Origin: a virus
Reading direction: 5' to 3' (one strand)
Virus record (IMG/VR): IMGVR_UViG_3300032323_000818
Coordinates: 1-28,824 of that record
Length of the DNA stretch: 28,824 nucleotides
Position numbers and translations under genes: made by a program. The notes beneath the pieces were generated by a model. It did not search any database and was not told where the DNA came from. It saw only the letters and a program-made list of their open reading frames with translations. Below, piece by piece: positions 419 to 18,617 of the stretch; within the stretch, counting starts at the first letter, position 1, and every line of letters starts with the position of its first letter.

Positions 419-432
419 TAGTGTATTTATTA
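419..432 (-). promoter_or_regulatory. T4-type late promoter for the leftmost gene
   Basis: The minus strand reads TAATAAATACACTA here; the core AATAAATA occupies 431-424. T4 late promoters are a single TATAAATA-type -10 box recognised by gp55, and marine relatives use NATAAATA. The same 14 bases recur in front of gp48. The site overlaps the stop codon of the giant gene (430-432), so the downstream gene gets its own late transcript. Assignment is by motif and position only. Confidence 0.65.
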
Positions 433-3400
433 CAGAACTTTAGTGGACTTCTGTCGGATGAATCTAGCAATAGCTGTATCATTTTTCAGCAATGTAATGC
501 CTTTGCTAGCGGTTAAGCCCGATCTTTCGTACCAAACAGATCCCTTACGTCTGATCACTGTAATTCGTGTTCCAGCAGGCAATGCTTTAGTTATCCTAAA
601 ATAAGGTGTTGTTCCAGTAACCGAGAACTCAGCTTCGATTTGTATATCGCCAACTGGGCTATACATTCCCTTGGTTTCGTCAAATACTGTTAGGGAATCT
701 TTACACAATCTCTTACCAGATACAAAAACTTCGATCTCGTCACACGAAAAATGAGTTTCTGGAATACTAGTAAATTCTGTAAATGCTACAGTTCCAGATC
801 CTAATGCCGGGCCAGTAGCTACAAAAGTTAATCCTACTAGATTTTCCTGTGCGCCATATAGGGTGAAATCAGTAGTTCCTAAAGCCACAATCCTATATCT
901 CAATCCAGCCTGCATAACATGGGCACCGAATATATGATCTCTTGTCTCTCGGAACCAAGTTGATTTGTCAGATCTTGTAGGAACAAACGGTAGCGGTCCA
1001 ATTTCAACAGTACTGCCGTCGCTGACAAAATCAAATCTTTCCTGTTCTTCTAAGTATGGTAATTGTTCAGAAACACTGACATCGATTACTGAAGTTCCTG
1101 CTAAGTGAACTGTTGCAATAGCAGTTCCTTGACTACCTCTTCTTAGTTGTGATAATTTGTTTCCGTCTTTTACAAGATATTCAATTCTTTCAGACCCGAC
1201 AAAAATTACGCCAGGCACATTTCTTTCTCGCATCGGGTTAGATAATCCAGAAGAATCACTTACAAACATTTCTGTATCGTAGTAAGAAAGATCCTGAGCT
1301 AACTGACAATCTGTTTCAGCGAATCTATTAAATCGATAGATATTCAACATATCTTTATTAATTTCATATGCTGAAGGTAAAGAATATGTATCGCTTGCAT
1401 ATTGAACTATTTTAATTTGATCTGTTAATTCTCCAACATCTTTTAGATAAACTTCACCATAAGGCAATTTAACATAAAAATCTTGATTTAGTGTTAATCT
1501 TTGGCCGTTTCTATAAACATAAACATAGCTGTCAGATAACGGTTTTCTAGATAAAACATACTTAAATTTGCCGCCTTCGTATTGATCAGAAATTATGCTT
1601 AATGATGGATATTCGCCAAACCATGTAACATCAATGTCGTCACTAGGGTTTAAATTGATCGTACTGTCAATTCTTAGATTATTATCTTCGATAAAATATT
1701 CTGCTCTTAAATCAACTTCAATACGAATTTCATCATCTAAAGTTAACGCTTGAGGATTAATAATTACCTGTCCTTGGTTACCGTCATAGGTATAATCAAC
1801 TACGAATCTTCTTAGGATATCATTGATGTATACTCTGATATTACCCGATGTAATAGTACCGATTGGTTCTTGTGGATCAACACCTACCTGAACGATATTA
1901 TTAACTCCGTCATAGACCTTATAGATAGTATCAACACCTTTTAATTGTCGTCCATTAACTTCTACTAAAATTGAGGATGCAGCAGATGCTCTAGATAAAT
2001 TTACAAAGTTATCAAGATCGAAGATTCTTGATGAACCGTCGTATACTAATCTTTGTTGATTTATTCTGACCAATGATAGTCCTGCAGAATCAGTATCAAG
2101 AGCTGCTCCTAGTACTACAACTTTAACAGACTGTGATCGAGCAGGCGAAATAGCAAACTCAACTAAAACTTTGTCTGGTGTATCGACTAGTCCTGTACTA
2201 GAAATAAACGAAGCATCAAACTGATCGCCGTCTAGTGTAACAAAAACGCTCTGAGCATCTTTAAAATTTGCTCTGGTTAAAAAGTATTTTGTTTCCCCGT
2301 CACCGGTAAATTCAGAATAGTCTAATATAGCAACACCGCCAACTCCAATTGAAGTTATTTCGATAATAGAGTTTACCGGTGGTGCTGTTACAAATTCAAT
2401 AGTTGAATCTGTAAAATCAATAGTATAATTAATCGTACTATCGCCTCGATATTCCTGTTTGACTTTGTCAACAAATACCATTACAGAATTTGGTTCAAAT
2501 ATTGTCTGACCGATATCATAAACTGTTTTAACACCGTCGCTGATAGCAATCTTAACTTTGAAAGGAGCAGCAGCAGCCGGTGTAAAATTATAAACCTTAA
2601 TACTAACTGAATCTAATATCTGTCCAGGAACATTTTCTTCTGGAGCAGGAACATTTTCCGGGCTTACAAACTTACCGCCGTCGATCGCTATTTCTTCAGC
2701 AGTCTTTCCTGTTGCAGTTACGTATGCGCCACTCATAGCACTTAGAGTACCGCCGCTGATATTAGTGTCAATAAGATTCACATCTGTGATCGATACAGAT
2801 CCATCGCTGTCTAGCGGTCTGAAAATTATTGTATCTCCTACTGTTGTATTAAGGAAACCTTGTATCTGCACTACTGATGTAGATCCGTCTCCGATAAAGG
2901 TTGGTATCAACGCATTAGGATTTGTTATAGGACCAGCATGTACTGTTGATTCAAATCTTAGATCTGGTTGCCAAACATTGTTTGGTGCAGCATAGATCCA
3001 ATCAATTAAGTTTTTGCTAAATTCAAAAGTTACTAAAACGTGATTTGTCGGCACGACTGTAGGCAACGGCAACTGAGCATCATCTTCAGCTTGCCATGTT
3101 TGAACATCCCATATATTTCTAGGAGTATCTACTGATCTATATTTCTTATTAGAAATCCCTGTGGTTAAATGATTATTATTCATAAACCAGTAATCATTAG
3201 GATATTTAAAAATCCTAATATCGGGATTTTCTTTTCCAACATAATAATCTAGTGCAACATAGCCCGGGGCTAAAGAAGCAGGTATTCTTGTATATGTTTG
3301 ATTGAATTCAGGAGATCCAGCATTCGTTATAACAATTTCATTGGTTGGATTTCTAGTAACAGTTACTCTTGTATCTGGCTGGACATAAACTCCATATACA

Positions 3401-6400
3401 TACCAACCTGTTTGAATCGCTGCGCCAGCATCACCTAAGTAACCTTCCTGCCCTGGAATTAGTCCAGCATTTTCAAGATAGGTGATTGTGTTTGTAACAG
3501 TAGTCGATCCATCATAATTAAATGGCGGATTAACTTCGTGATCTAATGTAACTTTTTCAATCTCTACAAAATTCGAATCATCAATTCTTATTGTTTTATT
3601 ATCAGCTATTCGTTTCAAGTAGATCGATAATATTTTTCCATTTTCTGGAACGGTTGGTAAAGTTACAAAGGCTGTTGAACCGTCTGCAACATAATAGTAG
3701 TCTGAGTTAGCTGCAACGCTGTCCCAACTGTCTGTGAACCAAGGCAACGCATCCCAACCACCTGTAATATCAAAAGTTGTTCCCTGTATCTGTACTCCGC
3801 CAAAATCAAAACCAGTCATTAGCTGAGAATAATCTCGTGATGTGATATTACCGGTATTATCAGTTATTACTGGTAATCCTTTCATACCCGGAGTTGGCTT
3901 ATAGAATTTTTCAATTCTACCTATGCTGTCAAATATCGATGAATTTTTATCAAAGGTTACAACTATCACCGAATTTAATGCCGGTGGAACAACAAATATC
4001 AACTTTCCTTTTAATATTGAATAAGTTCCTATATCTTGGAAATATAAGTTAATAGAATATTCGCTGTTTAAAATTAATTGGTCGTCTTTAAAGACTGTGA
4101 TGTTTCTCTTATCTAATGTCGGAGGATAATCCAATTCAAAGACTGCCGACTGACCTGTGGCTGTGAATCGTTGTACATATTGACTGGTAGCATATAAAGA
4201 TCTCTTATCAATACGATCAAATTTTAATGTAAGATCAAAGGAACGAGATTTATTGTCGCCAAGGATCACTGAACCTCTAGCTTTGTCCGTAGACGAACCG
4301 TTTCCGCCTACCAGCGTTACCATAGGGGTCTTTGTATAACCAGAACCGGAATTCGTAATTTTGATAGCCGATACTTTACCGTTTGATATGTAAGCCTGTG
4401 CTGTCGCACCTGTACCATCTCCCTCGATTATAACCTGCGGCGGTGCGGTATAATTAGAACCGCCATTAGAAATTAATATATCAACAACTGATAAGCCTTT
4501 ATTATCAAACCACCACTTCCACGGATATTCTGTAAATCTATTAAAGAACTGATTAACTGGTAAAATTTTTCCTTCTTCTTTCGAATAGGCCGGTGGTAAG
4601 TCGAAATCGATAGCAGAAACATTTGCATTTTCTAAATTCTTATATCTACTTGTATATTCTCTGATCGTTGTTCTATAAGGTTTGACTTCTTCAATATAAC
4701 GTTGATAGCTATCGAGGTTGTCATTCTTATAATTTAATTTTTGTTCAAGATCGCCAACATTGTGTATAGCATTCAAGAAGCTGGTCTTAAATGCCCAATC
4801 AATATATGGTTGTTCGGAGAATGCAAATTTTACTGCAGAGAAGAATAAGTTATTCCATTCTACTCTTAGGTCGTCTATGAAAATATCTTCTTTAACCGCT
4901 CTAAAAATATTTCTCATTTCTCGAGTAGGTTCGATATCATATTCCACAGCATCATATGTGCCTAAATTATCAAACCCAACAGATGAATCCTTAACGGTAT
5001 AAATCGTCGGAAGTATCTGTATAGTGCCATTATATCTTCCAACTATTTCAAAGTCTTCTACTAAATTTTCCGATGAGTTGGTTAACTTTTTCAGTAGTGC
5101 CCAACCGCCCTGACCGTATTCTTTGATTTTCACTAAATCATCTTTTTCTAATTCAATATCTACTAAATGATACAGATTTAGAATTTCTTTAACTACTCTA
5201 CTTTCAGAGCTGTATGTAGCTGCATACCAGTCAACGTATGACCAATATCTCGGAGTATCAAACGCCTGTGATCTACTTCTAAAAAATACTCTTCTGATCG
5301 AGTCCCAAGAATATATGCTCCATAGACCTTGAAGATTAGAATCTGTTCGTACTAGAACAGAGAAAGCTCTAATCTTAACATTGGCATAGGTATATTTTTT
5401 ACCCCTATTGGTAACAGTTACTGACGATACTCTACCTTGAGAGTCTATCGTGATATCTGCGGTAGCACCGACTCCGTCGCCTTCGATTAGAATAAATGGC
5501 GCATTTTTGTAACCGAATCCTCTATCATCGATATCGATAGTGTCAATTTCGCCGTTAACAATGTTAACTGACAGTTCTGCTTCTTTAATTCTAACAGTAC
5601 CTACATTTTGAAGATCAATAAAATTATCAACAGCAACGTCATAGATGTTGAGCAATTCGCTAGGAATACCATCTCTCAAGTTTAAGTTAACAAAATTAAT
5701 AGTATCTGCAAATGGTCTTGTTGCTAAGATAGAATTTATTTTATCAAAGGTAATCTTCAAGGCCAGAGTTCTATCAACGAACATACTCTGTAACGGTCTG
5801 AAAGAAATACCATATTTCAATTTCGTTGGCAGTTTAGGATCTGGTACCCTGTTTCCTGCACCGTCAAGACCTACTAAGCTATCAAGCCATTTTGTTTCTA
5901 AAGTTTCTGCTGGAATACTATCTACGCTGTTCTCTGTTAGTAATTGATACTCTCTGTGAACAAGATTCTGTTTTGCTTCATTGATGTATTCGATATTCAA
6001 TAGGCATTGATCAGAAGTCAATGTCTCTGGGAAATTGTAGGCTAAAAATTTATCTTTATCGATAAGAGAGATAAACGGAAGTCCACTTCCAATTGGGTTA
6101 GATATCAATGATGAAATATCCGATGCTGCTAGTCTTCTGCCTGGCACGTTTTGCGGAATTATCGCAGAGTTTCTTACCCAATAATAATATTTGGTAGATG
6201 TCGGAAGTTCTGTATTCGGATTGAAAATAACCTTTATACTGTAAACATCGTTGTTAGGATATAATGGCTGACCCGAAATTCCATTAGCAAGTCCCTCAGG
6301 AGTATCAGCTAACGCACTCCAATCAGAAGGAAGAAGCACTGTTTCGACCCATTCATAAACATCAATAGTAGATCCGTATGCTTGGGCGTTCCAGTTTCCT

Positions 6401-9400
6401 ATTCTATAAGAAATATCCCCTTGTTCATACAATGTCCATTTTGCTGTGGACAGGTTCCACCAAATTTTTCCAACATTTTTTTCAAACCATGCAACGTCCG
6501 GATCTACTACTTGATCATCAGTTCCGTCAGTGTAGACCGCTGGATCGTAAAGAGTTTTAAATGATATTTCTTGATCAGCTATGGATAGAATCTTATTCTT
6601 GTAGCTGTCGACGATATCGAGATCTCTGATCTTAATATTATTTTTACTATCAATTAAATTAATATTTTTTACCACTGAGATATCTGTTAGGTCTTCGGAT
6701 TTAGCAATCACTGTTAAAGAATCTTTAGAAGGATCTTTTCTAAACATTCTTACACGACCGAGCTTACCTGCAGGTGTTGCATAATCTGGAGATCCAACTA
6801 CAACAACTGAATCGCTACAGCTTATAGAGAATCCAAAAGATTCGTTATTCAAGAATGTAGCTTCTAATCTTTCTGCTAAGAAATACTTCTGTTCTTTTCT
6901 TTCAAACACATAGGCTCTACCAGGATAACCCAGATCGTCAAAGAACGTTGTTCTACCTTTATCATAGATAGTGTCTAGTGAAAGATCAAAGAATGTTGGT
7001 TGATTGTATAGAGCATTTTTTGCACCAATAGCTATTCTTTCTGTGCCGTCACTGATGCAAACGCTATAACCAAACTGTTCGTTACTGTACTTTTCAAAAC
7101 TTTGTAATTTTTGTTTTAATCTAAATTCTATATTGTTTAGATTATTGGTCTTGAAAACAAATACAGCACCCTGATTTATAAAATCAATGTCTGCGTCCGG
7201 ACTGCTAACTACCAATGTAGTTCCTGTTAGATCTAGATCTAAACTAAATCCGAATCTATCTCCAGATTCTAAAAATTCGTTTCCAATATCACTAAACTGT
7301 GAAAGAGAATCGGCTGTGATCGTCTGCACTAATTCATAACGATCGGTCGAACTTCTTTTATAGACAAATACTTTACCTGTCTTAATACCTTCTATTGTTC
7401 CTACATTCGTCCAAGGCAAACCTATATCCGGAACTTGATCTTTTACGGTATATGTAGAGTCGTTGGATGGATCCGGATCAACAAGTCTGTAATAATTAGT
7501 ACGATATTTTACAACATCGTCTTCTCTATATTCTTGATATGGATTATAGATTCCTCTAAAATTAGCAAAATATTTTCCGTCACTGCTTGGAACGCCTACG
7601 GCTAGAATTGATCCGTCGCCGTTCATAGTTAAGTTATAACCAAACTCGTCACCGGCCTTTACTAATTCTGCAAGTTCACTTTCTGATAATAGGCCCATGT
7701 CTAACGTGGACCCATCATCGTCTACTGATGCACTGCTAGGAATAGAGTTATGTGTAGCGATATCGTCTAATTTTTTCCAAGATTCAGAAGTGGTTATTCC
7801 GCTGCTACCATCGCCGAATGTTTCTTCAATCGCTTCGTATAACGCATTATCATACCAAACAATAGATCCTTTAGGATATGATTGTTCAGCACTGTAAACT
7901 CCTGAATAGTTTTGATTTTCTAAATGTCTCCAACCCTCTCTTCTAACCAGAGAAAATTCTAAAGATACTGTACATCCAGTACCGCCCGACGGAAATACCG
8001 ATGTAACCTGTGTCGACGAAACAGTGGTTATAAATTTACCTGGATCAGAAATTGTTAGCGACCTAACTACTCCATTTAGTGTAGACACTATAAATGATGC
8101 GGTTCTTCCACCAATGTTAACTGTTAATATATCGCCGTCGGTGTAATTTGTGCCGCCATTAACGATTGTAACATTCGAAACTTCGAATGTTCCAGTGGTA
8201 TCATATTGGTATAGATAAACTCTACCTTTTCTGTTTAGGGCACCCGGAGCACCCACTGCCATGTAATATATCGTTCCCTTTTTGCCGATAGTGACCGATG
8301 TTCCAAATTTTTCTCCATCGCCTTGCCTTGGGCTCACAAATGTGTCTGTTAATTCCCAAAACGTTCCACGATATTCGTAGACTGAGATTAAACCCTGATT
8401 GGTATACCCTTGATTTCTTCCGATGGCATTGACTTCAACAATATCAGCTAGAGCCCATAGTTCTGAATCGATATTGATAGTACTGCCGTCTCCTACGATA
8501 TTATCTAAAGCTCTCCACAGCCTGCCTCCGAAATAAACAATCTCACCTTGACGATATGTAGCAGAAGGATCGAAGGTTCCCATAAAGGAACTCGGAATTC
8601 CGCTGGCATTAGGAGACGCGATTACCAAGAATCTTTCGTCAGGGCTTATAGCCATGTTTTTACCGAAAGAGAATCCTAATCGATTTACTAGATTTTCAGG
8701 TGGAGCAATAATTTCTCTAACTCTAAGTCCCTGTGGGGTCTCAGCATAAATCATTACATATCCGGATTGAGGAATACTTGCTACAACATGGCCTGCTGTC
8801 TTCAAGTAAAGAACTTTGTATCCTGTTCCTACTGGAGTAGTAATTCCATACTCTAATAAATCTTTAAACTGATACTGTCTAGATTTTTCTATAACCTGCC
8901 ATCTGTCAGTGGTATTATCGATCCATAATTTTGCTCCCGAAGGAAGAACTGCTGCGGCTGCTGGATCTATTTCTTCATAAGACACTTCTCTAGCATCAAT
9001 GAATAAACTAGGATTGCAAACAACAGAACTATTGTCAAACTCAGGATCTGGATCTGTAGCTTTAATTCTTATTCTTATCTTTTTAAAATCTATCTGATAG
9101 ACTTTAAAAAATCCTGTTAGGTTAGGAATATCTTCAAAACCCACAATATCATCAACAGCTATATTATGATTTCTGTTGAATGTTATTTCAACAATATCTT
9201 TATTTTTTGTAAGCTCTTCTACTATTAAAAGAGGTTCTTTATTATATCTTAATACTGTCCATGTGTTTTTATCAAATGTAACCCACACATGATGATTGTC
9301 TCTAAAATTTGCAATATTGAGAGTTAATATTTCGTCTCTGTTTTTTACAACATGTTCAACTTGATCTAATCTAACATACCCTGCTGATCTGTTAAATTCC

Positions 9401-12400
9401 TCAAAGTTCTTTAGAGGGTTGATATCTTTAGTGAATATCGAATCAACTAAAGTAAATTTTGAAGAATTAATTCTATAGTATTGATCTTGAGGAAATTGTT
9501 CTTGAGAATCTGTAATCAAAATCGGCTGAGGATTAATTACAAACTTGTCTTTGATAATTTCAAATTCAATTTGATCAGTTTGATCTGTTCCACCAAATAG
9601 ACCTACTCTAAATGCCCATTCTTCTTTCAATACCAAACTGTCATCTGCGGTTCTGCTTGTTTTGTCAAATACCTTAACTAGCGCATTTGATGTGCCTTTT
9701 TCTCTAATGAAGCCTTGATATAATCTAAACTGTGTAACTTCATCTTCTGCAAGACCTTGTAGATAATCTCTCTTTTGATATCCGATCGCATGGCGTCCTA
9801 GGTCACGCTGGCTAGCGCCTACTCCATCGCTGTCAAGATTATAATAATCTTCAAATTGATTTATTCTATAATCAAAGTTTGGAACTAACTTCTTAGAAGG
9901 AGTAGAATCTAATTTACTCCACTTCGTATCATCGAAAACTTCTACGCCAACTTGAGTTACCTGGCTAACATAATTAACTGACTGATATGTTACAATATCG
10001 CCTAATTTATAATCAGTGAATGGTTGCCATGGATCTATTGAAACATTGTCAAATAAGAATCCCGGACTGGTATAATCACCATCCCAGTCTAAAGTCCTAA
10101 AGCCCCTAGTCTTAATTCTTTCTTGACGATATCCTGTGGTTTTGTCATAGATTACATCGTTAAACACTGTTCTGTCATCAAAGACTACTACATGCTCCTT
10201 AAGAACATAATAAATTTTTAAGAAGTAGATACCAGCAGTAGTATTAGTTGTTTCTATTGTAAATTTTTGGAAGTCTCTTTTTACATTTATAAAATTAGGC
10301 AACAAAGGCAATCCGTCGTTTCTTAAAATTTTATAATCATAAAAATCATTTATAACACTGTCAACTACACCAACAGGATTTGTTATTTCAATCTTATCCG
10401 CAATTGGACTTAATGAAATTAAAGAACCGATAGCCCAGTTATGATTGGTCCAGAACATGAATTCTTTACATGATGTGGAAAAATCTTTAGCAGTTTGTGT
10501 TGCTGAATCGTAACCATCAAATATCATTCCTTTAGACTTGAGATGTTCTTCATAGCCTAATAAAAAGTCTACTACTGATTGTATAGTGTTAAATTCAAAA
10601 CCATAAGGTATCTGTTTAATCTGTGTTGTATTAAAATTAGTTCTTCTAAAAGCATCAACTCCGCCGACCAAAGGAAGTTTAGGAATTTTTTTCCATAACG
10701 CAGTATTGAAAGTAGTTTCGGATGTATGACTCTTTAAACTTCTATAAAAATCATTATTGTATCTTACAATTACTCCGTTACCTATAAATGTTTCAGGCGC
10801 CCATTCAATAAATTTTTCGCTGACTCCGCCCACAGTCATAAACACGTCTGCTTGATTTGGAACAGCTAAGAAATAATCAAAGACCGGATTTAATTTATCA
10901 TATCCGTTTAATTTCCAGCCTCTTTCTGTTTTTTCTAAAATAACTCCGCTATATGTAAAAGTAGAGATAGGCGAACTTACATTAAAAATAATGTCGTAGT
11001 TTTCTTGAGGAATGAATACTGCACTAGACTTCGAGCTTGGAGACTTACTGTCTAAAATATATTTTTGATTTTCTTTATCAACAAATCCAGACAATCTGCT
11101 TGACAGCCCAACATCAATCCTATCGATGATATCTGAAATAATAGACGACGGCAAACCTCTGGTTTTTAAATAATCTACCACATAAGAAATCAATCCTGAT
11201 GTTCTTTCAGTAACGCTAGGCATGTTAATATCGCCCGGTTTGAAGAACCAATTACTTCCCTTATTAACTGTCTGGCCGATTATGTTTGTTGTAATCGAAG
11301 CTCGATCTAAACTCTGAGGAATAAATTCAAACGGTCTTAATAATGCCAATGCAGCAGTTACCGCAAACGGCCATTCTGAGCTAGTTCTCCAAGCGTGTTC
11401 TGATGGAGAAATATCACCTATTTTAAAATTACCTTTGTTGTTGATTAACACAAAATTCTGTGCAAGGTTCGAATTAAGAGGACTTAATAATTTTCCTTCA
11501 TCATCAGTTGGAATATGATTCATCAATGAAGGACGCTTATATCTATCATAAGTTCCTGCTTTAGCACCTCGACGAATTATACCGTCACGAAGGTCTTCCC
11601 AAAGAATCAAGTTATTTCTTGTATATGGAGCAGGACCATATTCTGCATCCCACCAATCTGGTTTTTCGCTGAACCCTAGCATCTCCCAAGGGTCTGTATG
11701 CGGTCTATCTGTATCATAGAACCATTGATATGCACCTCTCCACCATCCTGGTAAATTTTGAGTACCATCAGGACTGGTCATATTTGTATATGTGTAAGTG
11801 AAAGAATTTTCACTATCGAAATATTGATTTGTAATATAATCAATATTCGTGTCAGCTAACCAGTTTAAAAAGTATCTATCAACAATCTTATCTAAAGATT
11901 CTTTAGGATAGAATCCTGTTCTATAATATCCGCCTAGAACTAGATCGTTGTCAAATACTTTTTCTTCGTATTGCTGTTTTAAATTATTATAAATTCTAAA
12001 TTCAAGTTCTAAGATTAAGTCATCTCGATAATCATTAAATGCTGCAATTCGACTACCATCATGACCTTCAATTATCCAGCGAGGTACAACATATGTGTCG
12101 TCATAATATCTTCTCGGCAAGTATTTTTTGTACAGTCCTAACTTAGTAGGCGTAGCCGGAATAAAACAAAAACTAGTAGATACATATTCTCTGATCTGTA
12201 TTTTGTCGCCTTCTTCAAGATCGACTTTCAATAAAACAAAACCAAAGTTTACATTAAAATCATAATCTCTTTTGTATAAGAGTTGATTTCCATTTAGATA
12301 AACATAGACTGCTTTATTTGACAGCGTAGAAAGATCAAATTTTTCGTTCAAAGCAAATGTTTTAATTCCGGGATCTTCTACTTCGTAATCAATGCTGGTA

Positions 12401-15210
12401 AATGCACCAGTACCTACCATGTCTGTTTCAAAGAAAGGACTAGAATCAACTTTAGTCTTAGTCATTTCTTTTAAAATAACATCGACAAAATCTACAGTAT
12501 TTTGATTAAAAAACAGGTCTTCAGATAATTTAATAAAATTACTCTTAAAGGTCGAATAAGAATTTTTTGCGTATTCTATAGACTTTATAATATTTGCTTG
12601 TTTATCTGCTAATAAAGAAACTGCAAGGACTGGCAAGCCGCCATGCTTTAAAAAACGCTTTCCGTATTGAACATAATCAGACAGGTCTCTTAGATTATTA
12701 GGACCTATAACGCCGCCTATTAGTCTGTTATCAAATTCTAGAGCTGTTTCAACATGATCAATAAATGTTCCTAATGTAAAGGTATTGAGATCTTGATTTA
12801 AAGGATTTTTTTCTAAGCCTACTGGAACTTCGTAATATCCCTGTGCTGGATCGATGTCAGCAAAAAGTTTAATTACAACTGTGTCGTTTTTAACGAATGT
12901 GGTATCAAATGTAAACTGGCTAAGTGTAGCAGTATAAGGAACTGATAATTTTTTACCGTTTAAATAGAATACGATTAAGGTCGGTTTTCCTTCAGCTCTT
13001 AGTTTTTCAAAATGTTTCCAATCTACAGTAAAAAATTCTACTGTATTAGTATCTTCTTTGATAACTGTGTGATCAATAATAGGTTGCAAAAACCTATCAT
13101 CAGTTCTAACCCAACCATTTTGATATTCTAAGTTAGGCGAAAATATCTTATAAAAACCTACTTTTATTTCTGACTCGATCGTACTTCTTGAATCAAGATC
13201 CTTGTAGGTAAATGTATCTTGTTCCCAATCAAATTCAAATTGTATATCGCCTACATTATTAATATTCAGATAGCTGATAGGAAATTTAAGTTCAGCATCA
13301 ACTACTGAATTCCCCATCTTATAACTTAAAAGTTCTGTTCCGGCAAATGAGCTTACTAGATATTTTTCTGTATCTGAAAAACTTATTCCTGTTGAATCAA
13401 ACACATCAAACAGCGGCGGTTGATTTATCTCTGTTTTCTTTTGACTTAATGTCCATTTTCCTTTATAGAAATGGAACATGATATTTTTATATTTTAATCC
13501 TAGATTTATTAGGAGACACTCGCCTTCAAAGGATTCTGAATTTACTGTTGGCTTAAGGCTGATCTGTCTTACACCGTTATGGGTAATAAATCTTACTTCA
13601 TAGATTCTATTATTGGCTAACGTATCAGTATCAGCTACTACTAATAATTTTGCACCGTCAAATAGAGGCTCGCCGTCTACGATATAACCTCTACTGCCTT
13701 CGATAGTTGAAAACACATCAGTTGTAAAATCATCAATAAAATCTACTGCCCCTTTGAAAATAGATCCGTGATTAATTAACTGTATATTTGATTTAAATTC
13801 AATAATAGGTCTTTTAGCTCTTAATTCCTCATCAGAATTAAAATCAGTACCGTTTACTTTATGAGCATATTCTAATACTGATCTATGGAACCATCGATTA
13901 TATCTACTCCAAGGATTGAAATCTTTACTACCACGATCGATAGTGATATAATCTTTTGATCCTGGGAATCCGGTCGCATCGTCAAATGGGCCTGAGTCGA
14001 AACCAGCATCATCAAACACTACATCGGGAGCAGAAGTATTGATTGTTGGAACTTTTAATTCATCAAAATTTACCAAAGAAATTGATGATCCGACTCCTTG
14101 TACGATCCAATTGCCTGTAGCGTATTTCGCAGGTGTAACTTTTCCGCCGAAGGTAACTTTTAGACCGTTAGTAAACTCTACGCTGTTAGCAGAGCGATAA
14201 GTGGTCATTCCGATAATTTCTCTGTCTACGTTGATGCTGGTGTTTGATTCTATATTAGAAATTATGAATCGACCAAAACGATCAGGCTCTGTTAAACTTT
14301 GATAAAACAATGTTTCAGGAGCATCAAATGGAACTGTGAAAGTAACTGTTCCAGACTGTGCGCCGTTATTCGTAATTCCTTTAACATAGTCCAAGGCGGA
14401 GCCTTGACCGGCTTGCTCTACAAACTCCCAGTCTTGGGAATTTTCATCAATGGTGCTGCCGTCTTCAGGAAATACTGTAGTCTTAGCTCTCCATAATCTA
14501 CCGTCAAAAACCACTAACTGATCTTTGAAGTATGTTCTGTTAGGATTATATAATAATGATCCAGTGTCATAGTTGGTTCTAATATAAAAACCGTTATTAG
14601 GAACATTGACTATAAACTTATATGTCTGTCCTCGATATAAAGTAATCGTAGGATTATTAGTAAATCCGTCCGGAGCAAAAATAAAGACCGGGCCTGTTCC
14701 TAGTGAAACTCTATATGTAGCCTGCACTTCGTCGTTTTGACCAAATACCTTGATTGACGGTGGGCCGCTAGGTTGCCAATAGTACTCTCTATAGTTGATA
14801 AACATGTCCCAGTTTACAGGCGGGTTCCAACTATAATGTTCATGTGTACAGAATAAATCGTCTCTTTCGCTATCGTTTCCGAAAAACTTTAATTGATTTT
14901 TTAAATCAAGATAATCATAATATCTTTCAATCCTATCTTGATCTTCATTTTTAATAATGACGCCGGTTTCTAACTGATATCTGCTTCTTAATGTTTCGTC
15001 GTCGTCAAGATAAACATCCTGACCTTTGAAAGTCTTTCCGTATCGCTTGCCGATATATCCTACTGTCTTTTCAAGCGAGCCTGGCTGTATTAAAGGATCA
15101 ACTACTCCAGATAAAAATTTGTCGTTCGTCGGTGTTTGAAAAATCTGAGGTAATAACTCAGATGATTTTCTGATCGGTAATTGACTCTTTGGATAAAACT
15201 TATTTGCCAT
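430..15210 (-). CDS. Giant modular baseplate/tail structural protein (4926 aa, in the gp7 position)
   Basis: This single uninterrupted frame fills half the window and directly follows gp6 (2-nt gap, no clear Shine-Dalgarno, so probably translationally coupled). T4 has gp7 (about 1030 aa) here; this protein is nearly five times longer and I cannot show homology to gp7. Modules by approximate residue: conserved N-terminus 1-160 (LLPQIFQTPTNDKFL; WNPPVNWDMFINYREYYW); cupredoxin-like 183-320; NPWSRYNRWFH region about 440; Trp-rich core 1130-1450; beta-propeller of FG-GAP type about 2140-2830; GxGY repeats about 2340, 3215 and 3572; DGST beta-hairpin units 3680-4610; C-terminal LRRGSQGT and GTTDF modules about 4640-4810. 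Six CBM5/12-like modules are scattered from 222 to 2605. No catalytic motif, signal peptide or membrane segment was noticed. Likely a virion baseplate-periphery protein for host-surface binding (inference). Confidence 0.85.
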   Translation of the reverse strand: MANKFYPKSQLPIRKSSELLPQIFQTPTNDKFLSGVVDPLIQPGSLEKTVGYIGKRYGKTFKGQDVYLDDDETLRSRYQLETGVIIKNEDQDRIERYYDYLDLKNQLKFFGNDSERDDLFCTHEHYSWNPPVNWDMFINYREYYWQPSGPPSIKVFGQNDEVQATYRVSLGTGPVFIFAPDGFTNNPTITLYRGQTYKFIVNVPNNGFYIRTNYDTGSLLYNPNRTYFKDQLVVFDGRLWRAKTTVFPEDGSTIDENSQDWEFVEQAGQGSALDYVKGITNNGAQSGTVTFTVPFDAPETLFYQSLTEPDRFGRFIISNIESNTSINVDREIIGMTTYRSANSVEFTNGLKVTFGGKVTPAKYATGNWIVQGVGSSISLVNFDELKVPTINTSAPDVVFDDAGFDSGPFDDATGFPGSKDYITIDRGSKDFNPWSRYNRWFHRSVLEYAHKVNGTDFNSDEELRAKRPIIEFKSNIQLINHGSIFKGAVDFIDDFTTDVFSTIEGSRGYIVDGEPLFDGAKLLVVADTDTLANNRIYEVRFITHNGVRQISLKPTVNSESFEGECLLINLGLKYKNIMFHFYKGKWTLSQKKTEINQPPLFDVFDSTGISFSDTEKYLVSSFAGTELLSYKMGNSVVDAELKFPISYLNINNVGDIQFEFDWEQDTFTYKDLDSRSTIESEIKVGFYKIFSPNLEYQNGWVRTDDRFLQPIIDHTVIKEDTNTVEFFTVDWKHFEKLRAEGKPTLIVFYLNGKKLSVPYTATLSQFTFDTTFVKNDTVVIKLFADIDPAQGYYEVPVGLEKNPLNQDLNTFTLGTFIDHVETALEFDNRLIGGVIGPNNLRDLSDYVQYGKRFLKHGGLPVLAVSLLADKQANIIKSIEYAKNSYSTFKSNFIKLSEDLFFNQNTVDFVDVILKEMTKTKVDSSPFFETDMVGTGAFTSIDYEVEDPGIKTFALNEKFDLSTLSNKAVYVYLNGNQLLYKRDYDFNVNFGFVLLKVDLEEGDKIQIREYVSTSFCFIPATPTKLGLYKKYLPRRYYDDTYVVPRWIIEGHDGSRIAAFNDYRDDLILELEFRIYNNLKQQYEEKVFDNDLVLGGYYRTGFYPKESLDKIVDRYFLNWLADTNIDYITNQYFDSENSFTYTYTNMTSPDGTQNLPGWWRGAYQWFYDTDRPHTDPWEMLGFSEKPDWWDAEYGPAPYTRNNLILWEDLRDGIIRRGAKAGTYDRYKRPSLMNHIPTDDEGKLLSPLNSNLAQNFVLINNKGNFKIGDISPSEHAWRTSSEWPFAVTAALALLRPFEFIPQSLDRASITTNIIGQTVNKGSNWFFKPGDINMPSVTERTSGLISYVVDYLKTRGLPSSIISDIIDRIDVGLSSRLSGFVDKENQKYILDSKSPSSKSSAVFIPQENYDIIFNVSSPISTFTYSGVILEKTERGWKLNGYDKLNPVFDYFLAVPNQADVFMTVGGVSEKFIEWAPETFIGNGVIVRYNNDFYRSLKSHTSETTFNTALWKKIPKLPLVGGVDAFRRTNFNTTQIKQIPYGFEFNTIQSVVDFLLGYEEHLKSKGMIFDGYDSATQTAKDFSTSCKEFMFWTNHNWAIGSLISLSPIADKIEITNPVGVVDSVINDFYDYKILRNDGLPLLPNFINVKRDFQKFTIETTNTTAGIYFLKIYYVLKEHVVVFDDRTVFNDVIYDKTTGYRQERIKTRGFRTLDWDGDYTSPGFLFDNVSIDPWQPFTDYKLGDIVTYQSVNYVSQVTQVGVEVFDDTKWSKLDSTPSKKLVPNFDYRINQFEDYYNLDSDGVGASQRDLGRHAIGYQKRDYLQGLAEDEVTQFRLYQGFIREKGTSNALVKVFDKTSRTADDSLVLKEEWAFRVGLFGGTDQTDQIEFEIIKDKFVINPQPILITDSQEQFPQDQYYRINSSKFTLVDSIFTKDINPLKNFEEFNRSAGYVRLDQVEHVVKNRDEILTLNIANFRDNHHVWVTFDKNTWTVLRYNKEPLLIVEELTKNKDIVEITFNRNHNIAVDDIVGFEDIPNLTGFFKVYQIDFKKIRIRIKATDPDPEFDNSSVVCNPSLFIDAREVSYEEIDPAAAAVLPSGAKLWIDNTTDRWQVIEKSRQYQFKDLLEYGITTPVGTGYKVLYLKTAGHVVASIPQSGYVMIYAETPQGLRVREIIAPPENLVNRLGFSFGKNMAISPDERFLVIASPNASGIPSSFMGTFDPSATYRQGEIVYFGGRLWRALDNIVGDGSTINIDSELWALADIVEVNAIGRNQGYTNQGLISVYEYRGTFWELTDTFVSPRQGDGEKFGTSVTIGKKGTIYYMAVGAPGALNRKGRVYLYQYDTTGTFEVSNVTIVNGGTNYTDGDILTVNIGGRTASFIVSTLNGVVRSLTISDPGKFITTVSSTQVTSVFPSGGTGCTVSLEFSLVRREGWRHLENQNYSGVYSAEQSYPKGSIVWYDNALYEAIEETFGDGSSGITTSESWKKLDDIATHNSIPSSASVDDDGSTLDMGLLSESELAELVKAGDEFGYNLTMNGDGSILAVGVPSSDGKYFANFRGIYNPYQEYREDDVVKYRTNYYRLVDPDPSNDSTYTVKDQVPDIGLPWTNVGTIEGIKTGKVFVYKRSSTDRYELVQTITADSLSQFSDIGNEFLESGDRFGFSLDLDLTGTTLVVSSPDADIDFINQGAVFVFKTNNLNNIEFRLKQKLQSFEKYSNEQFGYSVCISDGTERIAIGAKNALYNQPTFFDLSLDTIYDKGRTTFFDDLGYPGRAYVFERKEQKYFLAERLEATFLNNESFGFSISCSDSVVVVGSPDYATPAGKLGRVRMFRKDPSKDSLTVIAKSEDLTDISVVKNINLIDSKNNIKIRDLDIVDSYKNKILSIADQEISFKTLYDPAVYTDGTDDQVVDPDVAWFEKNVGKIWWNLSTAKWTLYEQGDISYRIGNWNAQAYGSTIDVYEWVETVLLPSDWSALADTPEGLANGISGQPLYPNNDVYSIKVIFNPNTELPTSTKYYYWVRNSAIIPQNVPGRRLAASDISSLISNPIGSGLPFISLIDKDKFLAYNFPETLTSDQCLLNIEYINEAKQNLVHREYQLLTENSVDSIPAETLETKWLDSLVGLDGAGNRVPDPKLPTKLKYGISFRPLQSMFVDRTLALKITFDKINSILATRPFADTINFVNLNLRDGIPSELLNIYDVAVDNFIDLQNVGTVRIKEAELSVNIVNGEIDTIDIDDRGFGYKNAPFILIEGDGVGATADITIDSQGRVSSVTVTNRGKKYTYANVKIRAFSVLVRTDSNLQGLWSIYSWDSIRRVFFRSRSQAFDTPRYWSYVDWYAATYSSESRVVKEILNLYHLVDIELEKDDLVKIKEYGQGGWALLKKLTNSSENLVEDFEIVGRYNGTIQILPTIYTVKDSSVGFDNLGTYDAVEYDIEPTREMRNIFRAVKEDIFIDDLRVEWNNLFFSAVKFAFSEQPYIDWAFKTSFLNAIHNVGDLEQKLNYKNDNLDSYQRYIEEVKPYRTTIREYTSRYKNLENANVSAIDFDLPPAYSKEEGKILPVNQFFNRFTEYPWKWWFDNKGLSVVDILISNGGSNYTAPPQVIIEGDGTGATAQAYISNGKVSAIKITNSGSGYTKTPMVTLVGGNGSSTDKARGSVILGDNKSRSFDLTLKFDRIDKRSLYATSQYVQRFTATGQSAVFELDYPPTLDKRNITVFKDDQLILNSEYSINLYFQDIGTYSILKGKLIFVVPPALNSVIVVTFDKNSSIFDSIGRIEKFYKPTPGMKGLPVITDNTGNITSRDYSQLMTGFDFGGVQIQGTTFDITGGWDALPWFTDSWDSVAANSDYYYVADGSTAFVTLPTVPENGKILSIYLKRIADNKTIRIDDSNFVEIEKVTLDHEVNPPFNYDGSTTVTNTITYLENAGLIPGQEGYLGDAGAAIQTGWYVYGVYVQPDTRVTVTRNPTNEIVITNAGSPEFNQTYTRIPASLAPGYVALDYYVGKENPDIRIFKYPNDYWFMNNNHLTTGISNKKYRSVDTPRNIWDVQTWQAEDDAQLPLPTVVPTNHVLVTFEFSKNLIDWIYAAPNNVWQPDLRFESTVHAGPITNPNALIPTFIGDGSTSVVQIQGFLNTTVGDTIIFRPLDSDGSVSITDVNLIDTNISGGTLSAMSGAYVTATGKTAEEIAIDGGKFVSPENVPAPEENVPGQILDSVSIKVYNFTPAAAAPFKVKIAISDGVKTVYDIGQTIFEPNSVMVFVDKVKQEYRGDSTINYTIDFTDSTIEFVTAPPVNSIIEITSIGVGGVAILDYSEFTGDGETKYFLTRANFKDAQSVFVTLDGDQFDASFISSTGLVDTPDKVLVEFAISPARSQSVKVVVLGAALDTDSAGLSLVRINQQRLVYDGSSRIFDLDNFVNLSRASAASSILVEVNGRQLKGVDTIYKVYDGVNNIVQVGVDPQEPIGTITSGNIRVYINDILRRFVVDYTYDGNQGQVIINPQALTLDDEIRIEVDLRAEYFIEDNNLRIDSTINLNPSDDIDVTWFGEYPSLSIISDQYEGGKFKYVLSRKPLSDSYVYVYRNGQRLTLNQDFYVKLPYGEVYLKDVGELTDQIKIVQYASDTYSLPSAYEINKDMLNIYRFNRFAETDCQLAQDLSYYDTEMFVSDSSGLSNPMRERNVPGVIFVGSERIEYLVKDGNKLSQLRRGSQGTAIATVHLAGTSVIDVSVSEQLPYLEEQERFDFVSDGSTVEIGPLPFVPTRSDKSTWFRETRDHIFGAHVMQAGLRYRIVALGTTDFTLYGAQENLVGLTFVATGPALGSGTVAFTEFTSIPETHFSCDEIEVFVSGKRLCKDSLTVFDETKGMYSPVGDIQIEAEFSVTGTTPYFRITKALPAGTRITVIRRKGSVWYERSGLTASKGITLLKNDTAIARFIRQKSTKVL
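775..925 (-). other. C-terminal GTTDF-type module of the giant protein
   Basis: Residues about 4762-4812 read YRIVALGTTDFTLYGA followed by NLVGLTFVATG and GSGTV. This YxIxxxGTTDFTxxGAxxNxxGxxFxAT pattern is a small recurrent module of phage virion proteins with no known function. It lies just before the C-terminus, after a WFRETRDHIFG stretch. Confidence 0.55.
1085..1300 (-). other. SNP-PGVIF-ERIEY-RRGSQGT module of the giant protein
   Basis: Residues about 4637-4708 contain DSSGLSNP, VPGVIFVGSERIEYL and LSQLRRGSQGTA followed by HLAGTSVIDVS. I recognise this as a module repeated in marine phage virion proteins. Function is unknown; it sits between the beta-hairpin array and the C-terminal GTTDF module. 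Confidence 0.55.
1385..4175 (-). repeat. Divergent DGST-type beta-hairpin repeat array in the giant protein
   Basis: Residues about 3680-4608 hold at least seven related units with the pattern xGDGST/SxxYxLxx, then VxVxxxGxxxxxxxY, then IxFxxxPPxxxxIxV. Examples begin near residues 3679 (FTATGQSAVFELD), 3835 (VADGSTAFVTL), 4098 (IGDGSTSVVQI), 4220 (SDGVKTVYDIG), 4295 (FTGDGETKYFLT), 4382 (VYDGSSRIFDLD) and 4547 (GGKFKYVLSRKP). The units are diverged at DNA level, so this is an old domain duplication rather than a recent DNA repeat. Such units are common in phage fibre and baseplate-periphery proteins and probably stack as beta-sandwich or hairpin domains. Confidence 0.6.
2590..2740 (-). other. 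EEI-DGGKF-PEENVPGQ module within the hairpin array
   Basis: Residues about 4157-4207 carry TGKTAEEIAIDGGKFVSP, then PAPEENVPGQ and DSVSIKVYNF. This short module is familiar from phage virion proteins and sits between two of the DGST-type hairpin units. Function unknown. Confidence 0.45.
4305..4495 (-). repeat. GxGY repeat pair 3 in the giant protein
   Basis: Residues about 3572-3635: ISNGGSNYTAPPQVIIEGDG, then GATAQAYISNGKVSAIKI, then NSGSGYTKTPMVTLVGG. Two half-repeats of the form xxGxxYtxxPxVxixGdGxGAtAxaxxxxGxVxxIxI follow one another. They are most similar to the pair at 5375-5565. Confidence 0.65.
5375..5565 (-). repeat. GxGY repeat pair 2 in the giant protein
   Basis: Residues about 3215-3278: DDRGFGYKNAPFILIEGDG, GATADITIDSQGRVSSVTV, NRGKKYTYANVKI. 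Same unit as at 4305-4495, roughly 300 residues apart, separated by a region rich in Trp, Tyr and charged residues. Confidence 0.65.
7395..7555 (-). other. CBM5/12-like module 6 in the giant protein
   Basis: Residues about 2552-2605: IYNPYQEYREDDVVKYRTNY, then YRLVDPDPS, ending LPWTNVG. This fits the CBM5/12 pattern YxxxxxYxxGDxVxYxxxxYxAxxxxxxxxPxxxxxxWxxV with Gly replaced by Asp. It lies inside a propeller blade, between the GVPSS and GKVFVYK strands. Confidence 0.55.
7763..7905 (-). other. CBM5/12-like module 5 in the giant protein
   Basis: Residues about 2435-2482: GVYSAEQSYPKGSIVWYDNA, then LYEAIEETFGDGSSG, ending SWKKLDD. The aromatic/Gly/Val framework of the family is intact. It lies in the long insert after the second clear propeller blade. 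Confidence 0.6.
8030..8190 (-). repeat. GxGY-type repeat pair 1, inserted in the propeller
   Basis: Residues about 2340-2393: VTIVNGGTNYTDGDILTVNI, then GRTASFIVSTLNGVVRSLTI, then DPGKF. It is related to the pairs near residues 3215 and 3572 but more diverged. It follows directly after the blade strand GRVYLYQYD, so it is part of the insert that also contains CBM-like module 5. Confidence 0.5.
8445..8580 (-). other. CBM5/12-like module 4 in the giant protein
   Basis: Residues about 2210-2255: FDPSATYRQGEIVYFGGRLW, then RALDNIVGDGS, ending ELWALAD. This is the best match to the CBM5/12 (chitin-binding type) pattern in the protein, with Y, GxIVY, GRLWRA and the closing Trp all present. It lies between the strands IASPNASG and GLISVYEY of one propeller blade. 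Confidence 0.7.
9905..10035 (-). other. CBM5/12-like module 3 in the giant protein
   Basis: Residues about 1725-1768: DPWQPFTDYKLGDIVTYQSV, then NYVSQVTQVG, ending TKWSKLDS. The YKLGDIVTY core and terminal Trp match the family well. The preceding residues (GDYTSPGFLFDNVSI) mark the boundary from another region. Confidence 0.65.
10680..10805 (-). other. CBM5/12-like module 2 in the giant protein
   Basis: Residues about 1468-1510: WAPETFIGNGVIVRYNNDFY, then RSLKSHTSETTFN, ending LWKKIPK. The spacing from the first aromatic to the closing Trp is as in modules 3 and 4. Confidence 0.6.
14251..14664 (-). other. Cupredoxin-like domain split by a CBM-like insert, near the N-terminus of the giant protein
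   Basis: Residues about 183-215 (ITLYRGQTYKFIVNVPNNGF, then YIRT) and about 268-320 (GITNNGAQSGTVTFTVPFDA, then PETLFYQS and GRFIISNI) are the two halves of a module I recognise from marine phage virion proteins; in complete copies it ends LYYQCxxHxxMGGxI, like a cupredoxin. Here that tail reads FYQSLTEPDRFGRFI, so the usual His and Met are missing and metal binding is unlikely. Between the halves, residues 222-264, lies CBM5/12-like module 1 (TYFKDQLVVFDGRLWRAKTT, closing DWEFVE). Confidence 0.6.
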
Positions 15211-15212
15211 AA

Positions 15213-18200
15213 TTAGTTCGTCGAATTAATAATAGAATTTAGATCTGCTCTAATTTCTGATGCTGTGATTGCTGTTATAATTTCAATATCATCAACTGTC
15301 GCTCCGCTGACAAATATCTCATCAGAGCGGCTTTGTATTTCAAACAAGCTGCCGAATGTCTGGGAAACTTGTCTTGGAACAATAATAATATTGCTTACGT
15401 CTGGTGCTACTGAATTAGTTATATAGGTAATCAACTCTCCAAGATAAAACTTGTCACCAAAGTCCCAATTGCTGACTTCAAAGAAAGAATTAATAGCTAA
15501 TACTATTCGAACCTTTAAATCGTTATCGTTAATAGATCGACTAGAATTTTTAACAACTTTAAAAACTGCTCTCAATTTCTCATCTGCTGCTGGACCAAAT
15601 AATACTTTGTATTCAACTGGATGATAAATGATTTCATCGCTGATAGATTTTATAGGATCTAATTTAGATCCAAAACTAATTCTCAACTGGTCGCTGGTTG
15701 GCCTTTCTGGCCTAACTGATGTAGCACCTATAAGGAAATTTCTATAGGCAACATCGTATGCTCTTGTTAACAGATAAACGTCAATGATATTGCTGACGCT
15801 AGGATCTATACGTCTATCAACATTGGCGTTGTGTGTATATTGAAATTTCAATCCTGCTCTTCCGATGTTCGCTCTGTATTGAGGTTGGATGTCTAATGTA
15901 TTTGTAGATCTGTTTACTCTTTTAACTACTTCTTCATCTACTGTGTAAAAATAAATTAACTGTCCGTCGGAGAAATTGTTTACGCTAATTAACGATTCCT
16001 TTTCAAATACCAAGATAGTATTCAAAGAGTTATCAAAATATTCATATGATTTTTGTCCAAAGAAATCAAAATTCTCAACAAAGAAAATATATGACAATTC
16101 TGAATCGGCACCTGCTATCGCTTGAAACGCATCGGGATCATCTATAACTCCATCATCGTCACGATCAGCAAATGCTATTTTAATTTCTTTAGTAGATTGA
16201 TATCCGTCATCAAATCGTATTGTGTCACTAATTTCAAACTTAATATCATTTTTAAGAGGATTTATTCTTCCGTTATCTGTGTTAATTCCTAGAACAGAAA
16301 CTTGATCCTTGATAACTTTGTTTGTCTTAGAGTCGTATGTTTTTTCATTTTTGTCAAAATAAAATCTATTTTGATTAACACTACCAAAAACATAATCTAG
16401 TCCACGAACCCTAATAATATATTCATCAGCTTTTTTAACAAATGCCAGAGCCCAAGAAGAATCTAAATTAGTATTAGTGGTATCACCTGTCTTACCCAAG
16501 CTAAAATCTGCAGCTAAATTTAAATTTCCAGAAGTAATTATTTTCCAAGCAGATTCTAATACGTCGTATCTTAGACCAAAATTAATGCTCTGAGACATTA
16601 AATTAATCATCTCTGATTCTAATGCAGGCGGCAAATTGTTTACAAATTTCGGAACGATCTGTGATGCAACTGCACCGGAAGGAACAATATCATTGAATGT
16701 TACAGCTCCAAGTCCGTTGGCTAAAACTCCTCGGCCTGCATTGGTTCCGTCACCAACAACCTTGATAACTTTAGTCCATATTCTGGTTATTTGTTCAGGA
16801 TCTGTAGAATCAATGTCTACTATTTTTCCTCTTCTAAAGGCTTTTCCTGCCGGAGGAACAAATTTAATTAAGGATCCGACTGTGATATATCTTAAGTTAT
16901 TTGTTGTATAATTCGCTACCTTTTGTAAGGTTCCATCGATAGCGTTTGTAAAATAACCAGTAGTCTGATTAATATCTTGTGTAACCGAATTCCATAAAGT
17001 ATTAGCATCAGTGAACAATACTTTATTAAATTTTGTAAGATAAAAATTATAAAAATTGTCAGTGGTAAAAAGAGGTTCGATAGTTTTTCTAATATAATTG
17101 ATTATCTCAACTCTATTGTTAAATTTAAAAGCCAGCGACTGCTCTGTTTCATTTTTATAGATGTAACCGTCATCTGCAAAAACGTTAACATTTGAATATT
17201 TTCCGCTGGCATCAATGATATCAAAATTTCTACTGATGCCGCTAGATGTTCTGTTAATAGCCTTTACCTTAACAATTTCTTGAGAGTTTGCCAAGGGAGC
17301 AAGGTTATAATCTTCCGCAGTTATCATTCTATTCTGCGTATAATACTGTGCAGGAGCATTAGCTCTGATGCTGTCAACTGATTCAGAAGCTGCCGAATTT
17401 GAAACTGTATACTTTAAGCTCATACTGATTGTTAATGTATGGGCTACTCCTTGTTTATTAGCATAAGGAATTGAAATATTAATTCCTCTCATGTCTGCCG
17501 GAGCTATCTGATATACTATTCCGTTACTGATTCTGTAGTAAGTTCTAAAAGAGCCTTGTGGTAGTGCTCCGTAAACGCCGTCGGCGAAAACTAAATCTAC
17601 TCTATCTTCTTCTTTAGAAGCAACGGAATAAATGTTTCTTACGCTATTAACAATACTGTTGTAAGCGATATTATTTCCGGTTATGTCTGAAACCTTAGTC
17701 CACTTGTCTAATTGTACACCAGCTGAAGATAATGAGTACAACCAGATATCATCATTGTTAACACCTTCTGTATTAATTGCTACTATCTCGTTTGATGTAG
17801 GCACGTCAATATTAAAATCAGCTAATTCTAAACTGCCTTGTTTAAACATCATGAAAAATCCTGTATTAGGACTTGCGGCGCCGCGGCCGTCTTGACGGTA
17901 AACGAATCCTAATTGATTACCCGGTGTTGGATCTTCTTCATAAAAAACTTCTTTGTTTTTAAAACTAGTGCTGACTAGTTCAAACGACATTCTTCTTCCT
18001 GAAACAGGTTTACTAAAACTAAAAATTGGAACGTCCTGGCTAGTGGTTCTTAATCTATACTGGTCTGACGGGACACCTTGAATAACTGCCGATCCTTGAC
18101 TACGACCAAACTCTGTGTTGTCTGCCATGGCGGCATTTAGCACAAGAATAAATTGTTCTTGCCAGTTAGGGTTGGTAGTGTCATTCCAGATAATAGTTTG

Positions 18201-18617
18201 TTGGGAAAGATTTTTACTGTTGCTGTCAACTAGATCTTCAGTGGTGCTCACAGTATCAAATTTTAATAGGCCCTGTGCTGCAATATTTCTTTTAGCATTA
18301 TAGCTCAACATACGAGCTATTCTAAGAACACTGTCTTTTCTTTCAGCTAACTCGATAAAGTTTTCTCTGGATGCTAGGTCAATACGGAAACTTAGACTTT
18401 GTCCAAGAAATGCCACAGCGTCAATGAGAGCCATATATTCAGAACTTTCAATGTAATCGTTGAAATCTTCTGGATAGTTTTCACGTAGATATGTGATAAT
18501 GACTCTGCGAAGATTTTCAAAATCGTAAGATTTGAAATCCGCATTTTTAAAAGTCTGATAGATCCTGGTCCAATCTTCGTTTAAAATTAAATTATTTTGT
18601 CTAGCAGTTACCGTCAT
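15213..18617 (-). CDS. 6: Baseplate wedge subunit gp6
   Basis: This is the gp6 wedge protein, which in T4 forms the inner iris-like ring of the baseplate and joins neighbouring wedges. The N-terminus (NEDWTRIYQTFKNADFKSYD, RVIITYLRENYPEDFNDYIE, SSEYMALIDAVAFLGQ, RMLSYNAKRN) is typical of marine T4-like gp6. A baseplate-J-type motif, APAQYYTQNRMITAEDYN, falls near residues 416-434. The C-terminal part (YHPVEYKVLFGPA; ISDE; LGELITYITNSV) also fits a wedge protein. It has 1134 residues against about 660 in T4, so it carries extra sequence in the middle and C-terminal half. The start has AAGGA seven bases upstream and a late promoter motif at 18636-18644. It ends 2 nt before the giant gene. Confidence 0.88.
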   Translation of the reverse strand: MTVTARQNNLILNEDWTRIYQTFKNADFKSYDFENLRRVIITYLRENYPEDFNDYIESSEYMALIDAVAFLGQSLSFRIDLASRENFIELAERKDSVLRIARMLSYNAKRNIAAQGLLKFDTVSTTEDLVDSNSKNLSQQTIIWNDTTNPNWQEQFILVLNAAMADNTEFGRSQGSAVIQGVPSDQYRLRTTSQDVPIFSFSKPVSGRRMSFELVSTSFKNKEVFYEEDPTPGNQLGFVYRQDGRGAASPNTGFFMMFKQGSLELADFNIDVPTSNEIVAINTEGVNNDDIWLYSLSSAGVQLDKWTKVSDITGNNIAYNSIVNSVRNIYSVASKEEDRVDLVFADGVYGALPQGSFRTYYRISNGIVYQIAPADMRGINISIPYANKQGVAHTLTISMSLKYTVSNSAASESVDSIRANAPAQYYTQNRMITAEDYNLAPLANSQEIVKVKAINRTSSGISRNFDIIDASGKYSNVNVFADDGYIYKNETEQSLAFKFNNRVEIINYIRKTIEPLFTTDNFYNFYLTKFNKVLFTDANTLWNSVTQDINQTTGYFTNAIDGTLQKVANYTTNNLRYITVGSLIKFVPPAGKAFRRGKIVDIDSTDPEQITRIWTKVIKVVGDGTNAGRGVLANGLGAVTFNDIVPSGAVASQIVPKFVNNLPPALESEMINLMSQSINFGLRYDVLESAWKIITSGNLNLAADFSLGKTGDTTNTNLDSSWALAFVKKADEYIIRVRGLDYVFGSVNQNRFYFDKNEKTYDSKTNKVIKDQVSVLGINTDNGRINPLKNDIKFEISDTIRFDDGYQSTKEIKIAFADRDDDGVIDDPDAFQAIAGADSELSYIFFVENFDFFGQKSYEYFDNSLNTILVFEKESLISVNNFSDGQLIYFYTVDEEVVKRVNRSTNTLDIQPQYRANIGRAGLKFQYTHNANVDRRIDPSVSNIIDVYLLTRAYDVAYRNFLIGATSVRPERPTSDQLRISFGSKLDPIKSISDEIIYHPVEYKVLFGPAADEKLRAVFKVVKNSSRSINDNDLKVRIVLAINSFFEVSNWDFGDKFYLGELITYITNSVAPDVSNIIIVPRQVSQTFGSLFEIQSRSDEIFVSGATVDDIEIITAITASEIRADLNSIINSTN

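Follow-up and report, generated by a model that had tools for sequence, protein, structure and literature searches.

A predicted seven-bladed FG-GAP-type propeller with CBM5/12-like modules in its loops, in the giant baseplate-associated protein of an uncultured phage lineage

In integrins, the ligand-binding alpha-I domain is inserted between blades 2 and 3 of the alpha-subunit propeller (PMC10659397). Lactococcal and other siphophages carry an 'evolved Dit', a baseplate protein with inserted carbohydrate-binding modules (CBMs) that has insert-free 'classical' orthologues and a role in adsorption (PMC10688798, PMC6669499). In the cyanobacterial contractile injection system, the N-terminal domains of All3316/Cis13 bind the baseplate (PMC8894136). 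Whilst an FG-GAP propeller with an inserted domain is therefore known from integrins, such a propeller as a platform of a phage baseplate would be new.

The DNA that we analysed, here called the window, is an IMG/VR virus contig of 28,824 bases. A baseplate block lies on the minus strand, with genes for wedge-subunit, virion, hub/lysozyme, gp25-like and gp6-like proteins, followed by the gene for a giant virion protein of 4926 aa that belongs to the PHROG 10938 family (430..15210, minus strand; residue i starts at nucleotide 15210-3(i-1)). The gene immediately upstream encodes the gp6-like baseplate wedge protein (1134 aa; 15213..18617, minus strand), and the giant gene thus occupies the position of T4 gene 7, which in T4 comes after the gp6 gene. 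The plus strand encodes a late sigma factor and SbcD/SbcC, and the gene order matches that of the jumbo phages Cassandra, 121Q and fENko-Kae01, whose homologues of the giant protein are 24-30% identical to it; the record of the fENko-Kae01 homologue states that it was identified by LC-MS/MS. At the far end of the window, an ORF on the plus strand (28390-28824) matches PHROG 447 (NAD synthetase) and several homing-endonuclease PHROGs.

An earlier note, made from the letters of the window, had put the giant protein on the baseplate, and this is supported both by the gene order, in which the giant gene directly follows that of the gp6-like wedge protein within the block, and by the LC-MS/MS-recorded homologue. 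When a profile built from the first 1900 residues, which are conserved, was run against the PDB, it matched neither T4 gp7 nor any baseplate chain; its matches there were to chitin-binding domains only, reached through one of the CBM-like modules described below (module 2), and a direct phmmer search of the PDB with the whole giant protein returned no match. The baseplate placement therefore rests on gene order.

Alignment with phage isolates revealed two conserved blocks in the giant protein, at residues ~1-1900 and ~2860-3530, and the variable stretch between them is the propeller region. The Pfam family FG-GAP_2 (PF14312) matched the whole protein in four stretches (E 1.3e-13) and the propeller piece alone with E 7.5e-17 and 61.7 bits, against a curated cut-off of 23. 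In an AlphaFold2 model built from 39 sequences (mean pLDDT 82, pTM 0.80; model residue n is protein residue n+2089), the strands are arranged in seven sets (A to G) of four each, predicted to form a ring of seven four-stranded antiparallel blades. The top Foldseek match of this model in the PDB was the integrin alpha headpiece 4wk2 (E 9.5e-10), with TM 0.60-0.61 on the integrin targets 4wk2, 3zdz and 4wjk, and the family profile, from sequence alone, matched integrin alpha-M and alpha-E repeats. Foldseek also matched the model to FG-GAP proteins in a viral library, including a stand-alone one of phage Atu_ph07. Taken as predictions, these results confirm that residues ~2118-2850 (6661..8859, minus strand) form a seven-bladed, integrin-like FG-GAP-type propeller with inserted CBM5/12-like modules. 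The wheel with small, separate beta modules in its loops that the earlier note had envisaged is what AlphaFold2 and Foldseek return, in agreement with insert-free relatives; the blades that it listed are present, but there are seven in total, one of them preceding its first, and the span that it gave, 6730-8795, is slightly too narrow.

The same motifs could be read without a propeller, as the product of chance or of another repeat fold. Single FG-GAP repeats are indeed short and weak, FG-GAP itself (PF01839) had no match in the window, where FG-GAP_2 is the fitting family, and the AlphaFold2 model of an insert-free relative, L062, was poor (pLDDT 56, with only seven similar sequences) and was set aside rather than used. 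Nevertheless, Pfam, PDB profiles, AlphaFold2, Foldseek and the insert-free relatives concur by different methods, and we regard the absence of a propeller as extremely improbable.

The stand-alone FG-GAP propeller of Atu_ph07 (A0A2L0UZX4) is annotated as a hemagglutinin and has a TM of 0.70 to the window model, and the giant protein of that phage lacks a propeller. A self-BLAST for repeats gave the trivial self-match alone. Further GxGY-type repeats occur in the window's giant protein at residues 3202-3285 and 3572-3637 (window 5356-5607 and 4300-4497); these match PHROGs 438, 460, 22827, 19630 and 1922, which are common to unrelated virion proteins.

The blades and their inserts, all on the minus strand, could be delimited from the AlphaFold2 model and the alignment. 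Blade A (residues 2129-2170, 8701..8826) has no insert, its strands lying at model residues 44-47, 52-57, 62-68 and 73-79. Blade B is divided into strands 1-2 (residues 2180-2205, 8596..8673) and strands 3-4 (residues 2272-2294, 8329..8397) by CBM5/12-like module 4 (residues 2210-2258, 8437..8583), which sits in the strand 2-3 or 'GAP' loop. In blade C, a GxGY beta module (residues 2338-2425, 7936..8199) occupies the strand 3-4 loop, between strands 1-3 (residues 2300-2337, 8200..8313) and strand 4 (residues 2426-2434, the WRHLENQN region, 7909..7935). CBM5/12-like module 5 (residues 2437-2483, 7762..7902) lies in the strand 4-1 connection of blades C and D, and module 6 (residues 2552-2605, 7396..7557) in the strand 2-3 loop of blade D, separating strands 1-2 (residues 2514-2546, 7573..7671) from strands 3-4 (residues 2611-2634, 7309..7380). 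Blade E (residues 2644-2706, 7093..7281) is without an insert, as is blade G in this protein (residues 2787-2840, 6691..6852); blade F (residues 2707-2786, 6853..7092) has a loop extension of ~27 residues that is kept in relatives.

This layout agrees with the earlier reading in the order FLVIASPNASG, module 4, GLISVYEY and in the order LAVGVPSS, module 6, GKVFVYK. The third proposed series, GRVYLYQYD followed by the GxGY repeat and module 5, is likewise in the right order, and the GxGY piece does interrupt blade C; module 5, however, comes after strand 4 of that blade and so stands between blades C and D rather than within one. Of the later blades, said to be uninterrupted, E and G are plain but F carries its extension in the same loop. 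One face of a propeller usually has the 2-3 and 4-1 loops, and the opposite face those between strands 1-2 and 3-4. By this standard topology modules 4, 5 and 6 should share one face, and the GxGY module would be on the opposite face.

Three further CBM5/12-like modules lie outside the propeller, again on the minus strand: module 1 (residues 216-262, 14425..14565), whose sequence is nearest to those of modules 4 and 5; module 2 (residues 1466-1509, 10684..10815), in the conserved core; and module 3 (residues 1727-1768, 9907..10032), also in the core and a clean insertion relative to the isolates.

Relatives of the window protein show, from sequence and in line with the predicted model, that the modules are nested in the propeller. 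L062 and six kin (L089-L094) have a compact, insert-free propeller between the same flanks, which matches the window's blade columns alone with E 3.1e-44 over 440 columns, and the propellers of L077 and L084 are insert-free as well. L029 is without module 5, and the GxGY piece is missing from most relatives, in which the blade strands are intact. Over the 39 sequences, blade segments are nearly constant in length and insert segments widely variable. The occurrence of the same propeller without inserts argues against the modules being integral blade strands. In other relatives the scaffold holds more: L025 has a tandem CBM-like module, L056-L058 have ~400 residues inserted in blade C, L032/L034 ~100 residues in the GAP loop of blade G and the L061 clade (e.g. 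L059-L061, L063, L064, L071-L075, L087) ~600 residues after the CBM-like module of blade B. In L061 itself, this last insert is at residues ~2260-2840.

The modules fit a sugar-binding fold family. CBM_5_12 (PF02839) matched the whole giant protein in four stretches (E 2e-10) and the propeller piece alone (E 4.8e-6), with a score above the curated Pfam cut-off. A purpose-built profile, which had no match when the proteins were shuffled, found 393 CBM-like modules in 82 giant proteins, and the framework W/Y/F..Y..G..V.Y.G..Y/W.A....W is conserved across the 393. In the PDB, profile matches of the modules included the chitinase ChBD 2rts, the CBMs of a Vibrio chitin deacetylase and All3316. When aligned to chitinase A1 (ChiA1), module 2 has a Phe opposite the Trp of HTSLAGW, which we take to be W687, a chitin contact. 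At the aligned position, modules 2-3 have F and modules 4-6 most often I, V, L or S, and a Trp in this loop was found in 1 of 216 modules. It is unlikely, to judge from these residues, that a ligand would be bound in the canonical chitin-binding manner, although another mode of binding may apply.

What might such modules do? Our data are compatible with a model that starts from the predicted fold: in a baseplate-associated giant protein that stands where T4 has gene 7, the variable middle forms a seven-bladed FG-GAP propeller whose loops tolerate domain insertions. Two GAP loops and the connection of blades C and D have acquired and kept CBM5/12-fold modules, and a fourth loop holds the GxGY module. 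The side on which modules 4, 5 and 6 sit would then point outward and offer an accessory, low-affinity, multivalent contact to host glycans, perhaps helping the baseplate to settle once fibres have located the cell, as the CBM-bearing 'evolved Dit' of lactococcal phages would suggest. We put this forward as a plausible but tentative account. It draws on the finding that CBM insertions in lactococcal baseplate proteins promote adsorption (PMC10688798, PMC6669499). Against it stand the near absence of the aligned chitin-contact Trp, the relatives that have no inserts at all, and a conserved core that matches neither gp7 nor PDB baseplate chains, the placement coming from gene order. Receptor-binding tips are typically variable, yet the propeller modules evolve no faster than the protein on average (mean percentile 50, versus 49 for core modules), a negative result, on average, for hypervariable propeller modules. 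The earlier proposal of a multivalent sugar-binding receptor head agrees with the fold family, whereas the lack of the aligned chitin-contact Trp, the average pace at which the modules change and the presence of similar modules in the conserved core of relatives with very different hosts speak against it; as a multivalent sugar-binding head, the structure is possible.

A structural role for the modules, in subunit contacts or space filling and without any sugar, with the propeller as a scaffold within the baseplate, is a serious if somewhat doubtful alternative. Module 5 has its best PDB match (E 2.6e-4), with an alignment of almost the entire module, in the N-terminal part of All3316/Cis13, where these domains are baseplate-binding (PMC8894136). 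Modules of this kind are also part of the conserved core in relatives with very different hosts, module 2 being present in homologues from Pseudomonas, Agrobacterium, Sinorhizobium and Salicola phages, and the framework aromatics are kept where the aligned Trp is not. The slow, vertical inheritance described below would also fit structural units. Changes between relatives in the presence and size of the inserts would, however, be odd for load-bearing contacts, and individual close pairs have one module that ranks with the least conserved parts of the protein (module 4 in L019/L022; module 6 in L017/L018 and L032/L034). Adhesion and pure structure are close rivals, and we give adhesion a slight edge on account of the lactococcal precedent and of the variation of inserts between relatives.

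The propeller with its inserts is complete in at least 43 uncultured IMG/VR relatives, and ~20 more are divergent or partial, most of them with other inserts. The description of the nested arrangement as an unusual feature of one phage protein was accordingly too narrow. A tblastn search of 50,697 phage records gave no match to this propeller or to the insert-free one, and the giant proteins of the isolates PA5oct/Cassandra, Atu_ph07, Phosso, SCTP-2, 121Q and fENko-Kae01 have other material at the site. A one-blade 'propeller' match in Atu_ph07 (L003) was a lone weak match and was discounted. Extra CBM-like modules were seen elsewhere in isolates, at residues ~1490-1530 of the L004 giant protein and ~2965-2989 of the L003 one, and such modules at other positions indicate that CBM insertion recurs in the giant-protein family. 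Host assignment from metagenome-assembled genomes was rejected, as six contigs were binned in unrelated marine groups and are likely viral contigs caught in bins.

In a tree of the conserved N-terminal region (a quick tree with long branches), the first propeller bearers to split off are L077 and L084, which are insert-free; both later clades include propellers with CBM-like inserts, and the insert-free L062 falls inside one of these clades. This pattern makes it likely, albeit tentatively, that propeller inserts were gained and later lost. For 171 of 174 modules in the window's clade, the nearest neighbour is the module at the same site in another phage; the modules are therefore orthologous site by site, and the insertions old and maintained. 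Modules 1, 4 and 5 resemble each other (33-37%) more than they do other modules, as would be expected of old copies made within the gene. Such copying and the great variety of inserts in one scaffold, from none in L062, L077 and L084 to the large ones of L056-L058 and the L061 kin, would also be expected if CBM-like, GxGY and larger pieces were near-neutral, gained and lost by duplication and recombination with no shared function. We consider this very unlikely, since modules 4-6 have been kept in nearly all members of a 49-member clade with their framework residues conserved, unlike neutral inserts.

Insert-bearing and insert-free orthologues together show a phage baseplate protein gaining domains without loss of its fold, and such insertions help to explain the great length of these large-phage proteins. 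Because a single tree holds compact, three-module and five-module versions as well as those with 600-residue inserts, the role of propeller inserts in adhesion is directly testable. A bolder proposal, which as a whole we judge rather unlikely, is that the integrin-like propeller would serve this uncultured lineage as an interchangeable baseplate platform, with one face of CBM-like modules copied within the gene and another of GxGY or other pieces; the set of inserts would tune which envelope surface is gripped, as an independent viral solution in the style of the alpha-I domain.

Among described systems, the giant proteins of the isolates listed above are of the same family: they belong to PHROG 10938, follow a gp6-like gene and have both flanks conserved, whereas the propeller has no match in them. 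In Salicola phage SCTP-2, a 3096-aa protein encoded upstream of the giant gene (ORF141, L004:10612-19902) combines propellers of the WD40 type (E 4e-34) with von Willebrand A domains (E 6e-17), whose fold is also that of the integrin I domain. All3316/Cis13, from the thylakoid-anchored contractile injection system of Anabaena, shares with the window protein a baseplate context and a module that can be aligned to module 5, but it is a short, trimeric, tail-fibre-like protein without a propeller. The framework of the modules is that of CBM5/CBM12 (Pfam CBM_5_12, chitin-binding type 3); here, however, the aligned chitin-contact Trp is missing, and the modules sit in the loops of a virion protein, not in chitinases. 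As in 'evolved Dit', modules are inserted in a structural protein that has insert-free orthologues, although the carrier is a PHROG 10938 giant protein with an FG-GAP propeller instead of Dit, and the modules are CBM5/12-like, not BppA-like, and known from sequence and prediction, the adsorption role being that of Dit.

The integrin alpha propeller, which is among the top fold and profile matches, likewise has seven FG-GAP blades with an inserted domain, and the integrin device of setting ligand-type domains into a propeller thereby gains a viral parallel. The strict calcium loop Dx[DN]x[DN]GxxD, which joins strands 1 and 2 in calcium-binding blades, is absent from the window propeller and from residues 2000-3300 of all 82 giant proteins; FG-GAP_2-type repeats need not carry calcium-binding loops, and conformational signalling is a feature of the integrin. 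The phage protein, in the context of a baseplate, has not one domain between blades but three CBM5/12-like modules and one of GxGY type, some of which interrupt blades.
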